6,146 bases of DNA from Candidatus Atribacteria bacterium (GTDB lineage: Bacteria; Atribacterota; JALVIU01): assembly GCA_027028665.1 (NCBI GenBank), contig JALVIU010000043.1, forward strand, positions 1-6,146, read 5' to 3'. The translations under genes were made by a program, and so were the position numbers. Below the pieces are notes generated by a model, which was not told the origin of the DNA, searched no databases, and saw nothing but the letters and a program-made list of their open reading frames with translations. Positions 2,344-6,146 of the stretch are shown here, one piece after another (the stretch's first letter is position 1; each line of letters begins with the position of its first letter).

Positions 2344-2351
2344 CTCACCTC
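2344..2351 (-). promoter_or_regulatory. Ribosome binding site of the DUF1844 gene, overlapping the dgkA stop
   Basis: GAGGTGAG on the minus strand shares bases with the dgkA TGA stop and lies 5 bases from the ATG at 2338. It sits mostly in the largest intergenic gap of the window (2339-2349). Confidence 0.75.
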
Positions 2352-2718
2352 ACTTAAAAAGAATTTTATGAGCATATGGCCAAAATATAAGAAAACCTAC
2401 AATAACAGAAAAAATAGAAAATATAAGCACTGCCCCTGCCTGTATATCTTTTACATGTTTTACATTTTTATTATATTTATCCTCTATCATATCAAGAAGT
2501 ATCTCTATAGATGTATTTAAAAGTTCTGCAACAAATACCAGAGAAATCACTATAAAGATTATAGAAAGTTCTACTTTTGTAATATGTAAGTACCAAGAAA
2601 AAAGGATCACAAATAGTCCGATAACGATATGGATTTTCATATTTCTCTGAGTAGAAACAGTATAGGCTATGCCCTCTATAGCATAATTTAGACTCTCCAG
2701 AAATGACCTCGTTTTCAC
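2350..2718 (-). CDS. dgkA: DgkA-family membrane lipid kinase (diacylglycerol or undecaprenol kinase)
   Basis: Small integral membrane kinases of this family phosphorylate diacylglycerol (E. coli DgkA) or undecaprenol (Gram-positive members) with ATP, feeding phospholipid turnover or the lipid carrier of wall synthesis. The 122-residue product has the family layout: an amphipathic N-terminus, NMKIH (26-30), hydrophobic helices at about 31-46, 49-64 and 95-112, and the active-site stretch AELLNTSIE (64-72) with Glu65, Asn68 and Glu72, then VKDIQAGAVL (89-98) with Lys90, Asp91 and Gly95. The NMKIH form resembles the Gram-positive type, favouring undecaprenol as substrate, but sequence alone does not settle this. 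Gln24 sits where E. coli DgkA has the metal-binding Glu28; I recall TQRN variants in several phyla, so this need not mean loss of activity. The start codon is GTG, overlapping the protease stop (GTGA), with a good Shine-Dalgarno AAGGAGAG 6 bases upstream. Confidence 0.93.
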   Translation of the reverse strand: MKTRSFLESLNYAIEGIAYTVSTQRNMKIHIVIGLFVILFSWYLHITKVELSIIFIVISLVFVAELLNTSIEILLDMIEDKYNKNVKHVKDIQAGAVLIFSIFSVIVGFLIFWPYAHKILFK

Positions 2719-4367
2719 CTTTTACTCTCCTTCCTTACAATAGTCACATTCTTTTCTACCCAATCCCCTATAATCATATCCATATCAAAAGTTCTCTTTG
2801 TTCTCTTTGTCTCAAGTCCCCCAAAAAATTGTTCTAAGGTAAGACCTCCCTTCGTTTTATCCGCTTTTTTTATTGCCTCAGCAAAGGACTCTGCGTAAAG
2901 TTCTGCCACGAGGGAATTATTCTTTTCCCTATTTGTCAATTCTTCTATAAAACCCTTAATATCTGTAATATTTTTTTGCTCCTCTGGGATCTCTTCGGGG
3001 AGTGTCACATCACCACCTCTTACCAAAAGATAAGCAGAGCCAGGAGGAAAATCATCAGGTATCCTTATTGATATCTTTTTTATTATGGGTGACTTCCTGA
3101 AAGGTCTTATTGTAACATCTCCTTTTATAAGCTCACCAGGTCTATATTTATCCTTATCCAATACTATGTCCTCTATATAGCCTACATTCTTATGTTTTGT
3201 TATCTCTATATTTACCTTTACTTCATCAAAATTTATTTTTTTAAAGGGATTATCTTCAAGCTCATATACAAGTTCTTTTAAACCACTTAAAGATTCTGCT
3301 GCAATATCCTCTCCAGACCAATACATATCTTTCAATTTTACAATACTCTCTCCACCCCTATTAAAGGTAATAGAAACCTTTGATGTGCCTTTTCCAATCC
3401 TGTTTATCGCCCTATCTATTCCCTCTAATGAAGAAACAAGAAGTATTGGAGGAAAAAGCTCTTCATCCTGTACAGATTTTACCCTGAAAAAGCCTATCTT
3501 TCCATTATCTATATCCTTCACTTCTATTATTATAGATATAACCTTGGGATATTTACCAATATATCCCCCTACACCTTCTCTTCTATCCTGCACAGCCGTC
3601 CCTATAACATGTATAGGGGCTCCCAACTTAAAGGGAAACTCCATATTAGGGACAATTCCAAAAATATAGGCAGAAGATAAGAGAAAATCTATGTTTCCTT
3701 TGGTAAAAATAGGATGCCCAAATGCCAAGAAGAAATCTTTATCTCTATATGTAAGTGTACCAATAGCAGATATACTAAGGTCACCTGTAGTAAGATCTAC
3801 AGATACGGCACTACCCGGGATAATAGGGGTATTCTTAAAAAGTTTGGCCTTTATAAACCCTACATTAAGCATCTTCGCCCCATATCCAGCAAATAGTTTG
3901 TTTAAATATTCATAACCTCTTTCCCCCAATCCAGATACAGATAAATAAGAAGCCTCATTCAAAATTCCTTTCCATGAAAAAAAGTTTCTCTTCATAGATA
4001 GCATACGTCTTATTGGCACAATAAGTCCATACGGACCTTTTGTAAATTTCCAGCCATATGCCAAAGCACCTGCTAGCTTACCATTGAAATATATAGGACT
4101 CCCACTCATTCCTGCAACAATGGATCCATATTCTGAAAATCTCCTATCAGTTAGTTTTACAAATATATAGCCTTCTCCACTTTTATCTTCGATAGTATCT
4201 ATAACTACTACTCCGAATTCTTCTACCTTTGTACCTTTAAAAACTGTCTTTCCAATGCCTTGCATCCCTGGTTTTATATCTGTTATATCAATAATTTCTA
4301 CTCCGTATGCATAAGCTGTAATAAAGAAAAATAAAAGAACAATCACTAATACTATGTATCTTCTCAT
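2715..4367 (-). CDS. Exported SpoIVB-like S55 family serine protease with permuted catalytic motifs
   Basis: A 550-residue exported protein with a signal peptide (charged MRR, hydrophobic core 4-18, likely cleavage near AYA-Y at 20-21). The S55 domain spans about 25-335. GSIVAGMSGSPIYFNGKL (81-98) closely matches the SpoIVB active-site block QGMSGSPI and gives nucleophile Ser88; Asp74 in LTDRRF aligns with the SpoIVB Asp in KITDPRL; GTLTYRDKDFFLAFGHPI (203-220) matches the SpoIVB histidine block GTMTF...GALGHVI and gives His218. In SpoIVB the histidine block comes first, so the two halves are exchanged here. There is no PDZ domain. Residues about 385-460 look like a beta-sandwich segment; 460-550 is charged and unassigned. 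Similar S55-domain proteins with this motif order are, to my recollection, annotated in non-sporulating phyla. The start is the only plausible ATG; it overlaps the mreB stop (ATGA) and has no close Shine-Dalgarno, so it probably depends on re-initiation. Substrate is unknown; action outside the inner membrane on an envelope protein is inference. Confidence 0.85.
   Translation of the reverse strand: MRRYIVLVIVLLFFFITAYAYGVEIIDITDIKPGMQGIGKTVFKGTKVEEFGVVVIDTIEDKSGEGYIFVKLTDRRFSEYGSIVAGMSGSPIYFNGKLAGALAYGWKFTKGPYGLIVPIRRMLSMKRNFFSWKGILNEASYLSVSGLGERGYEYLNKLFAGYGAKMLNVGFIKAKLFKNTPIIPGSAVSVDLTTGDLSISAIGTLTYRDKDFFLAFGHPIFTKGNIDFLLSSAYIFGIVPNMEFPFKLGAPIHVIGTAVQDRREGVGGYIGKYPKVISIIIEVKDIDNGKIGFFRVKSVQDEELFPPILLVSSLEGIDRAINRIGKGTSKVSITFNRGGESIVKLKDMYWSGEDIAAESLSGLKELVYELEDNPFKKINFDEVKVNIEITKHKNVGYIEDIVLDKDKYRPGELIKGDVTIRPFRKSPIIKKISIRIPDDFPPGSAYLLVRGGDVTLPEEIPEEQKNITDIKGFIEELTNREKNNSLVAELYAESFAEAIKKADKTKGGLTLEQFFGGLETKRTKRTFDMDMIIGDWVEKNVTIVRKESKR
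2725..2732 (-). promoter_or_regulatory. Ribosome binding site supporting the GTG start of dgkA
   Basis: AAGGAGAG on the minus strand lies 6 bases before GTG 2718, inside the end of the protease gene. It is a strong Shine-Dalgarno and supports a GTG start at a 4-base GTGA stop/start overlap. Confidence 0.75.
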
Positions 4368-5392
4368 CTGCTTAATGTAATAAGCCCCCTTCCCTGTTTT
4401 AATACATCAATATAGTCCATCACTTTACCTGTACCAATAGCTACGCAAGAAAGTGGATTCTCTGCAATAGTTACAGGAGTTTCTGTAGCCTCGGCAATAA
4501 GTCTATCTATTTTCTTCAGCAATGCTCCACCGCCTGTTAGGACTATACCTCTATCTGCTATATCTGAAGAGAGTTCAGGAGGAGAACTCTCAAGTACCCT
4601 CTTTACACCTTCTATAATCTCATCTAATGAATCCTTAAGGGCTTCATAGATCTCTCTTGAAGATACTACTATCCCTTTTGGTAAACCTGAAATAAGGTCC
4701 CTTCCTCTTACCTCTATCTCAAGATTTTCATCTTCATTTTCAGGGGGAAGTGCTGTACCTATCTCTATCTTTATTCTCTCTGCAGTATTTTCTCCTATTA
4801 TTAAATTATATTTATTCTTTATATACCTTATAATATCTTGATCAAATTTATTTCCTGCAACCCTTATAGAATTATTAACAACAATTCCACCCAATGAAAT
4901 AATAGCAATATCTGTAGTACCTCCACCTATATCTACTACCATATTTCCATTTGGTTCACCTACATCGATACCTGCACCCAATGCAGCAGCCATAGGTTCT
5001 TCTACCAAAAAGGCATCCTTTGCCCCTGCCTGTATAGATGCCTCCATCACAGCCCTCTTCTCAACCTCTGTACCTCCTGAGGGGATACCTACGATTACCT
5101 TGGGTTTTGAGAATCTACGCTTTCCCCATACCTTTCTTATAAAGTATTCTAACATCCTTTCTGTAGTATTGTAATCTGCTATAACACCATCCTTCATAGG
5201 TCGTTCAGTTACTATATTTCCCGGGGTTTTACCCACCATCCTCCTTGCCTCTTCACCGATAGCAAGGATCTTATCCGTTTCTTTATTTATAGCAACCACA
5301 GATGGTTCTTTAAGCACAATACCCTTTCCTTTTACAAAAATATAAACATTTACAGTACCAAGATCTATACCAATATGTTTATCCCTCAGCAT
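4364..5392 (-). CDS. mreB: Rod shape-determining protein MreB (actin-like)
   Basis: MreB is the bacterial actin homologue that forms membrane-bound filaments and directs lateral wall synthesis by the elongasome. The 342-residue product matches the usual length of about 335-350. Actin-fold ATPase motifs are in order: phosphate 1 DLGTVN (10-15), PSVVAIN (30-36), the IVGIPSGGTEVEKRAV block (100-115), EEPMAAALGAG (131-141), phosphate 2 VDIGGGTTDIAI (153-164), and the adenosine motif IVLTGGGALL (283-292). I place the start at the ATG at 5392 because AGAGG lies 6 bases upstream; an in-frame TTG two codons earlier (5398) directly abuts that AGAGG and is unlikely. There is no long N-terminal amphipathic helix like that of E. 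coli MreB. Membrane contact may use the W89/F94 region, which corresponds to the insertion loop of Thermotoga MreB (inference). It overlaps murA by 14 bases and the S55 gene by 4, so translation is probably coupled. The Firmicute paralogue name Mbl is an alternative; subfamily cannot be fixed here. Confidence 0.97.
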   Translation of the reverse strand: MLRDKHIGIDLGTVNVYIFVKGKGIVLKEPSVVAINKETDKILAIGEEARRMVGKTPGNIVTERPMKDGVIADYNTTERMLEYFIRKVWGKRRFSKPKVIVGIPSGGTEVEKRAVMEASIQAGAKDAFLVEEPMAAALGAGIDVGEPNGNMVVDIGGGTTDIAIISLGGIVVNNSIRVAGNKFDQDIIRYIKNKYNLIIGENTAERIKIEIGTALPPENEDENLEIEVRGRDLISGLPKGIVVSSREIYEALKDSLDEIIEGVKRVLESSPPELSSDIADRGIVLTGGGALLKKIDRLIAEATETPVTIAENPLSCVAIGTGKVMDYIDVLKQGRGLITLSR

Positions 5393-6146
5393 AGCCAACC
5401 TCTTCTTCCTCCAACAAATTTACTCTTTTAATATGAGCACCAAGTGCATTTAACTTTTTTTCTATCCCTTCATAGCCTCTATCTATATGATAAACCCCAT
5501 TTACTTTAGTTGTGCCATCAGAGACAAGTCCTGCTATAATAAGTGATGCCCCTGCCCTTAAATCATGAGCAGTAACCTCTGCACCACTTAAACACTCTAC
5601 CCCTTTTACTATAGCACTATGTCCCTCAATCCTTATATCTGCACCCATTCTCTTTAATTCCCCTACATGTGTAAATCTATTTTCAAAGATATTCTCCGTA
5701 ATAATACTTATTCCATCTGAAACGGAGAGAAGTGACATCATCTGTGCCTGCATATCTGTGGGAAAGCCAGGATATGGCATTGTCTTTATATCCACTGCAT
5801 GTATTCCGTTATTTCCCAATACATGTATACTATTTTCAAATTCCCTTACTTCTATGCCTATACTTCTTAATTTTACTATAACAGCATGTAAAAATTCGGG
5901 ATTTATATCCTCTAAAAGTACATCACCTTTTGTGATTGCAGCTGCTATCATAAACGTACCTGCCTCAATTCTATCTGAAATCACTTTATGATTATTTACG
6001 CCCTTTAAACTTTTTACGCCCCTTATCTTTATAAGATCTGTTCCTGCTCCTTCAATATTTGCTCCCATCTTATTGAGAAAATTGGCCAAGTCTACTACTT
6101 CAGGCTCTCTTGCAGCATTTTCTATAATTGTCTCTCCATCTGCAAG
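5379..6146 (-). CDS. murA: UDP-N-acetylglucosamine 1-carboxyvinyltransferase (MurA), C-terminal 255 residues, 5' end outside window
   Basis: MurA transfers enolpyruvate from phosphoenolpyruvate to UDP-GlcNAc, the first committed cytoplasmic step of peptidoglycan synthesis. The frame is open to the window edge, so about 165-170 N-terminal residues of a protein usually 417-430 long are missing, including the loop with the PEP-binding Cys (Cys115 in E. coli). Visible family blocks, numbered from the first residue in the window, are IIENAAREPEVVDLANFL (7-24), SDRIEAGTF (57-65), FPTDMQAQ with the catalytic Asp at 131 (E. coli Asp305), ENRF with Arg157 (Arg331), HDLRAGAS with Arg197 (Arg371) and HIDRGYE with Arg223 (Arg397). 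All the family's key residues in this half are present. A paralogous AroA call is excluded by ENAAREPE and DLRAGASL. Its last 14 bases overlap mreB. Family assignment is secure; whether it is a MurA1 or MurA2 type cannot be told. Confidence 0.97.
   Translation of the reverse strand, partial: LADGETIIENAAREPEVVDLANFLNKMGANIEGAGTDLIKIRGVKSLKGVNNHKVISDRIEAGTFMIAAAITKGDVLLEDINPEFLHAVIVKLRSIGIEVREFENSIHVLGNNGIHAVDIKTMPYPGFPTDMQAQMMSLLSVSDGISIITENIFENRFTHVGELKRMGADIRIEGHSAIVKGVECLSGAEVTAHDLRAGASLIIAGLVSDGTTKVNGVYHIDRGYEGIEKKLNALGAHIKRVNLLEEEEVGYAEG
5399..5403 (-). promoter_or_regulatory. Ribosome binding site of mreB, inside the murA 3' end
   Basis: AGAGG on the minus strand ends 6 bases before the ATG at 5392 and lies within the last codons of murA. 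It decides the mreB start in favour of ATG 5392 over the TTG at 5398, which would leave no spacer. Confidence 0.7.

Follow-up and report, generated by a model that had tools for sequence, protein, structure and literature searches.

The 550-residue protein described here is probably a serine endopeptidase that is exported and has a circularly permuted trypsin-type domain, with Ser88, His218 and Asp261 as its putative catalytic triad and a place in the envelope machinery of diderm bacteria. Circular permutation of the two-barrel protease domain had already been proposed in a preliminary description of this DNA, and it is supported by the order of the sequence blocks, by structural models and by a profile alignment. 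The link with the outer membrane, which the preliminary description had not seen, is the stronger functional clue.

Gene, genomic setting and distribution

On the minus strand of the window (the whole stretch of 6,146 nucleotides that was analysed), the genes follow each other in the order murA, mreB, the 550-residue protease, dgkA, a DUF1844 protein, a TPR protein and pgi (Table 1). The protease is probably made from one tight operon, because it overlaps both neighbours, its start codon with the mreB stop (ATGA) and its stop codon with the GTG start of dgkA (GTGA). At the place where dgkA follows the protease in the window, a relative (L038) has ispD, a GHMP kinase gene and ispF. The protein is the only S55 protein that a genome search found in its own genome; its nearest named relatives by kinship belong to the Atribacterota, and the permuted family is present in 48 of 50 genomes of this group.

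Table 1. Features of the protease gene, its product and the adjacent genes (window positions)
Feature	Position	Strand	Remarks
Permuted S55-type serine protease	2715..4367	(-)	550 aa; Pfam PF05580, 44.2 bits; AlphaFold model of residues 24-550
mreB	4364..5398	(-)	Pfam MreB_Mbl; stop overlaps protease start (ATGA)
murA	5379..6146	(-)	Incomplete at window edge
dgkA	2350..2718	(-)	Pfam DAGK_prokar; GTG start overlaps protease stop (GTGA)
Sec signal peptide, inferred	4302..4367	(-)	Residues 1-22; hydrophobic N-terminus MRRYIVLVIVLLFFFITAYAYG
Ser barrel	3969..4298	(-)	Residues 24-133; counterpart of the C-terminal barrel of trypsin-fold proteases; VIA-align
Ser88 codon	4104..4106	(-)	Nucleophile in GMSGSPI; kept in 68/68 and 40/40
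Asp74 codon	4146..4148	(-)	Catalytic Asp of the preliminary description; Gly in 40/40 unbiased relatives
Variable linker between barrels	3819..3968	(-)	Residues 134-183; strand-helix-strand unit; alignment A1 and model
His barrel	3552..3818	(-)	Residues 184-272; counterpart of the N-terminal barrel, without inserted PDZ; model
His218 codon	3714..3716	(-)	Predicted catalytic His; sole invariant His of the protein
Asp261 codon	3585..3587	(-)	Proposed third catalytic residue; Asp in 68/68 and 40/40
Asp196 codon	3780..3782	(-)	Near-invariant, 66/68 and 39/40 (97%); beta1-beta2 turn
Middle alpha/beta region	3252..3542	(-)	Residues 276-372; model secondary structure
C-terminal Ig-like domain and helical insert	2718..3224	(-)	Residues 382-550; model

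Among 199 genomes of the Firmicutes-type phylum to which Pelosinus belongs, 52 have the permuted protein and 49 have Omp85; the permuted S55 gene is found in 49/49 Omp85-positive genomes versus 3/150 Omp85-negative ones (Fisher p 2e-43, for counts among related genomes and uncorrected for kinship), and the two genes lie within 15 kb of each other in 41 of the 49. In Pelosinus, a DUF2233-type (NAGPA) gene is followed by a permuted S55 locus with MlaE-MlaF-MlaD-TolC; TamB and BamA are neighbours in Halanaerobiales and Atribacterota, and FlgI in others. The genome of the window has Omp85 beside TamB, on another contig. The permuted family is missing from many diderms, such as E. coli, Bacteroides and Thermotoga, and would thus be a lineage-specific part of outer-membrane systems. 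A role in cell-wall growth alongside MurA and MreB, rather than at the outer membrane, could be read from murA-mreB, which stand nearest to the gene both in the window and in most loci of Atribacterota, but it is unlikely, given that Omp85-negative Firmicutes have a cell wall and almost never the permuted protein, and that MlaEFD-TolC, TamB and BamA are the neighbours elsewhere.

Several variants of the gene were encountered. Three Omp85-negative genomes (L144, L145, L146) encode short permuted S55 proteins (ORFs of 366-443 aa) that keep the Ser, His and Asp and have neither the C-terminal Ig-like part nor an obvious signal peptide; these proteins may represent a second use of the fold. Among the loci L079:2197-6429, L090:4109-8515 and L096:7773-10070, the permuted S55 domain of Armatimonadota forms a single protein with beta-propeller and Big domains, and in an anammox genome the next gene encodes a separate beta-propeller/Big protein. 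Two contigs titled Acholeplasmataceae (L061, L062) have a typical Acidaminococcaceae locus with the permuted gene, and their assemblies are probably mislabelled.

Order of the blocks and invariant residues

The Ser block (GMSGSPI, residues 86-92, with Ser88) lies 130 residues ahead of the His block (GTLTY...FGHPI, from residue 203, with His218), and the positions given for these motifs and for Asp74 in the preliminary description were accurate. The flanking blocks that it had seen to follow the exchange are present, although their numbering was one residue off (GIGKTVF starts at 37 and VIGTAVQDR at 254). The Pfam PF05580 match, which clears its cut-off of 25 bits, pairs residues 24-104 with positions 111-192 of the 210 of the profile; with such a score it is not due to chance, and it places the Ser block, from the C-terminal part of the profile, at the N-terminus of the protein. 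Instead of a His block and then a Ser block collinear with PF05580, the Ser block comes first, and the protein is therefore filed as a permuted S55 relative rather than as an ordinary member; its score against TIGR02860, the SpoIVB equivalog, is 41.9 bits, below the cut-off of 305.

In 68/68 sequences from several phyla, the window protein included, the His follows the Ser by 130 to 192 residues, and the earlier suggestion that permutation might be a family-wide trait is supported. In SpoIVB, a spore-signalling protease, the His lies 142 residues ahead of the Ser, and every SpoIVB examined shows this reverse order, whereas the swapped order was found in every non-SpoIVB S55 relative examined. 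The chain of SpoIVB runs from a PGG strand through the PDZ domain, the GTxT...GH block and the inter-barrel linker to the Ser block; here, the signal peptide is followed by the Ser block, the variable linker, the PGSA strand with the GTLTY...FGHPI block, and other domains. No PDZ domain is detected by Pfam, and the PGSA and GTLTY strands adjoin without a gap in both model and sequence, in agreement with the absence of this domain noted previously. Full SpoIVB and the permuted protein occur together in single genomes of the spore-formers Pelosinus, Sporomusa and Halonatronum; Halanaerobium, Allisonella and Acidaminococcus, taken as non-spore-formers, have the permuted form only.

Conservation was followed in two sets, one of 68 aligned, pattern-found sequences (window protein included) and an unbiased one of 40 relatives from a whole-genome profile search with no selection on motifs. 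Among the Ser, His, Asp and Glu residues, only Ser88, Ser90, His218 and Asp261 are 100% conserved in the two sets, His218 being the only invariant His of the protein and Asp261 the only Asp present in every relative. Ahead of Ser88 there is no conserved His, and so no hidden His/Asp pair in SpoIVB order, which had been named beforehand as one of the cases that would speak against the permutation. Within the His barrel, Asp261 sits 43 residues past His218, at the turn between beta5 and beta6; in chymotrypsin, Asp102 occupies the beta5-beta6 turn, 45 residues after His57. The residue order is thus Ser-His-Asp and not Asp-Ser-His, because the invariant Asp is Asp261. In place of the His, Asp, Ser chain order of clan PA, a triad Ser88-His218-Asp261, a cyclic rotation of that order, is proposed on the basis of invariance and model topology.

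The permuted domain might no longer be a protease at all, its barrels acting instead in binding or scaffolding during assembly of the outer membrane, as might be suspected of a protein with no known substrate or activity, and given that the SpoIVB crystal itself has an unusual, possibly inactive triad (PMC12502668). This seems distinctly unlikely in view of the invariance of Ser88, His218 and Asp261 in the 40 unbiased relatives, which sets these three residues apart from most positions.

Structure and homology of the two barrels

The AlphaFold model of residues 24-550 has a pLDDT of 91.6 and a pTM of 0.89. Residues 1-110 of the model superpose on the Ser-bearing barrel of many trypsin-fold proteases, among them DegQ (129-243), HtrA1 (266-370) and DegP (151-262; Z ~7, VIA-align), with Ser88 near the known nucleophile of these DegQ/HtrA1/DegP-type barrels, according to range arithmetic on the matches. 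Both barrels of clan PA were recognized, the six-stranded one bearing the Ser in the model and its VIA-align matches, and the second one, with a His after beta3 and an Asp at beta5-beta6, in the His barrel modelled alone (pLDDT 91.6). The linker between them consists of a strand (141-145), a helix (149-160) and a further strand (165-168) in the model; its Arg150 is invariant among Atribacterota, in some of which the linker grows by up to ~60 residues. Further along the chain, residues 372-525 of the model resemble complement macroglobulin-type domains (Z ~6.7), a common fold.

The His barrel superposes on the crystal structure of SpoIVB (9lnf, residues 108-301) over 84 residues at 3.2 A with 20% identity. 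This superposition spans the PDZ insertion, starting at the pre-PDZ strand, and because residue 108 lies before the PDZ domain, SpoIVB carries this domain as an insert within the first hairpin of its His barrel. VIA-align is the basis of these structural statements, with middling Z values of 4-7; Foldseek returned no match with E below 0.001 for the whole model or the His barrel, and 9lnf is absent among the VIA-align matches listed for the whole model.

By sequence, the His half resembles SpoIVB weakly (HMM E 0.005-0.4; profile-profile E 0.017), and SpoIVB was not retrieved when the His-half profile was searched against PDB sequences. PF05580 detects 20 of 68 His halves. A permutation-aware S55 alignment, one of the checks that had been suggested, gave one collinear alignment of the rotated profile with SpoIVB over 254 columns, versus 143 for the unrotated profile, and the profile alignment separately pairs GSAVSVDL with SpoIVB GHSIGVVL. 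Rotation of the single sequence (hmmsearch) gained ~1 bit, not above the gain with a shuffled His half, so that it is the profiles and the structure in combination that support the permutation.

If a Ser barrel had instead been fused independently to a different beta-barrel, with no permutation of S55, this would account for the weak similarity of the His half and for the fact that the isolated His barrel scores better against other barrels of trypsin type (in most cases the Ser barrel) than against SpoIVB. A fusion is nonetheless very unlikely: the superposition on SpoIVB extends across the PDZ insertion, ten out of ten SpoIVB sequences align on the same GTxT...GH block (nine score better than all of the shuffled or reversed controls), and, among Pfam families, PF05580 has matches to the largest number of His halves.

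The proposed third catalytic residue and SpoIVB

The preliminary description held that all three catalytic residues were kept, in the order Asp-Ser-His with Asp74 as the catalytic acid, but, although Asp74 aligns with SpoIVB Asp363 (invariant, 30/30), this is effectively ruled out by Gly at position 74 in 40/40 unbiased relatives and 62/68 other sequences, and by the SpoIVB crystal, in which ~24 A separate Asp363 from His236 and Asp363 is not regarded as catalytic (PMC12502668). Thr393, the substitute third residue of SpoIVB in the crystal paper (PMC12502668), was also rejected as a candidate for the permuted family, as its counterpart is Ala103 here and Ala, Ser or Gly across 68/68 aligned sequences.

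In SpoIVB (L114-L122, L138, L184-L203), the residue aligned to Asp261, at the place of the catalytic Asp of trypsin, is Asn in 30/30 sequences (Asn290 in B. subtilis numbering, by arithmetic), and Thr393, like Asp363, is invariant (30/30). Since Asp261 is invariant at the place of chymotrypsin Asp102 and is Asn in SpoIVB, SpoIVB would be the odd one. A tentative and rather improbable scenario is that non-proteobacterial diderms have used the permuted protease since ancient times in the upkeep of their outer membrane, and that SpoIVB was derived from it by re-permutation, PDZ insertion and an Asp-to-Asn loss. In a tree of the Ser barrel, SpoIVB forms one 100/100 branch among permuted sequences of Negativicutes; its attachment is weak (54/87), its branch is very long, and the direction of permutation is not settled by this tree.

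Proposed function

The point of permutation would be the inter-barrel linker, so that the Ser barrel comes first and the His barrel second, and Ser88, His218 and Asp261 would catalyze hydrolysis as a classical triad, judging from their invariance and the topology of the model. The protein, made here from a murA-mreB cluster and encoded elsewhere beside MlaEFD-TolC or TamB-BamA, would form part of the envelope machinery of certain diderm bacteria; it most likely acts on proteins that assemble the outer membrane or transport lipids, either at the outer membrane or in the periplasm. Its conservation in several phyla, in Firmicutes in near-exact step with the outer membrane, suggests that it is probably a working envelope protease. 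Taken together, the gene neighbours, the co-occurrence with Omp85 and the presence of Vpar_0521 (see below) in outer-membrane fractions point to an exported protease for outer-membrane assembly or lipid transport as the most likely role. Trypsin-fold halves swapped with the active site intact would constitute a striking natural permutation. The triad assignment also points to particular residues in a conserved protein of the outer-membrane cluster that has awaited a function since 2016. Under this assignment, the odd triad of SpoIVB, with Asn for Asp, would be derived, which is a testable proposal.

Comparison with known systems

HtrA, DegP and DegQ share with the permuted protein a periplasmic trypsin fold and a structurally matching Ser barrel, but they have the canonical His-Asp-Ser order and C-terminal PDZ domains, and there is no Pfam sequence match between them and the permuted protein. 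SpoIVB (MEROPS S55; PDB 9lnf) and the permuted protein have a GMSGSP nucleophile block, a GTxT...GH block, a two-barrel domain and export in common. SpoIVB differs in its opposite barrel order, in the PDZ domain ahead of the GTxT...GH block, and in having Asn at the place of Asp261 together with Asp363 and Thr393, three invariant residues that the permuted family lacks; unlike SpoIVB, the permuted family is not confined to spore-formers. Searches of open-access text turned up no published record of an S55 permutation or of the Asp/Asn exchange, and nothing relevant on a permuted chymotrypsin fold or S55 domains.

The outer-membrane gene cluster of diderm Firmicutes was described by Antunes et al. 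(2016; PMC5007114), who urged work on its unknown conserved proteins, and Vpar_0521 of Veillonella parvula has been detected in outer-membrane fractions and named as a study target (Poppleton et al., 2017; PMC5491611). The locus of Vpar_0521 is of the same type (DUF2233, S55, MlaEFD, TolC, TamB), with a gene order equal to that of Pelosinus for the genes named, and its match to the family is by position. In the available portions of these two papers, it is presented as an unknown protein, with no description of the permutation or the triad (PMC5491611, PMC5007114). The protein family is, thus, already known and its link with the outer membrane has already been suggested; the barrel swap and the corrected putative triad are added here.
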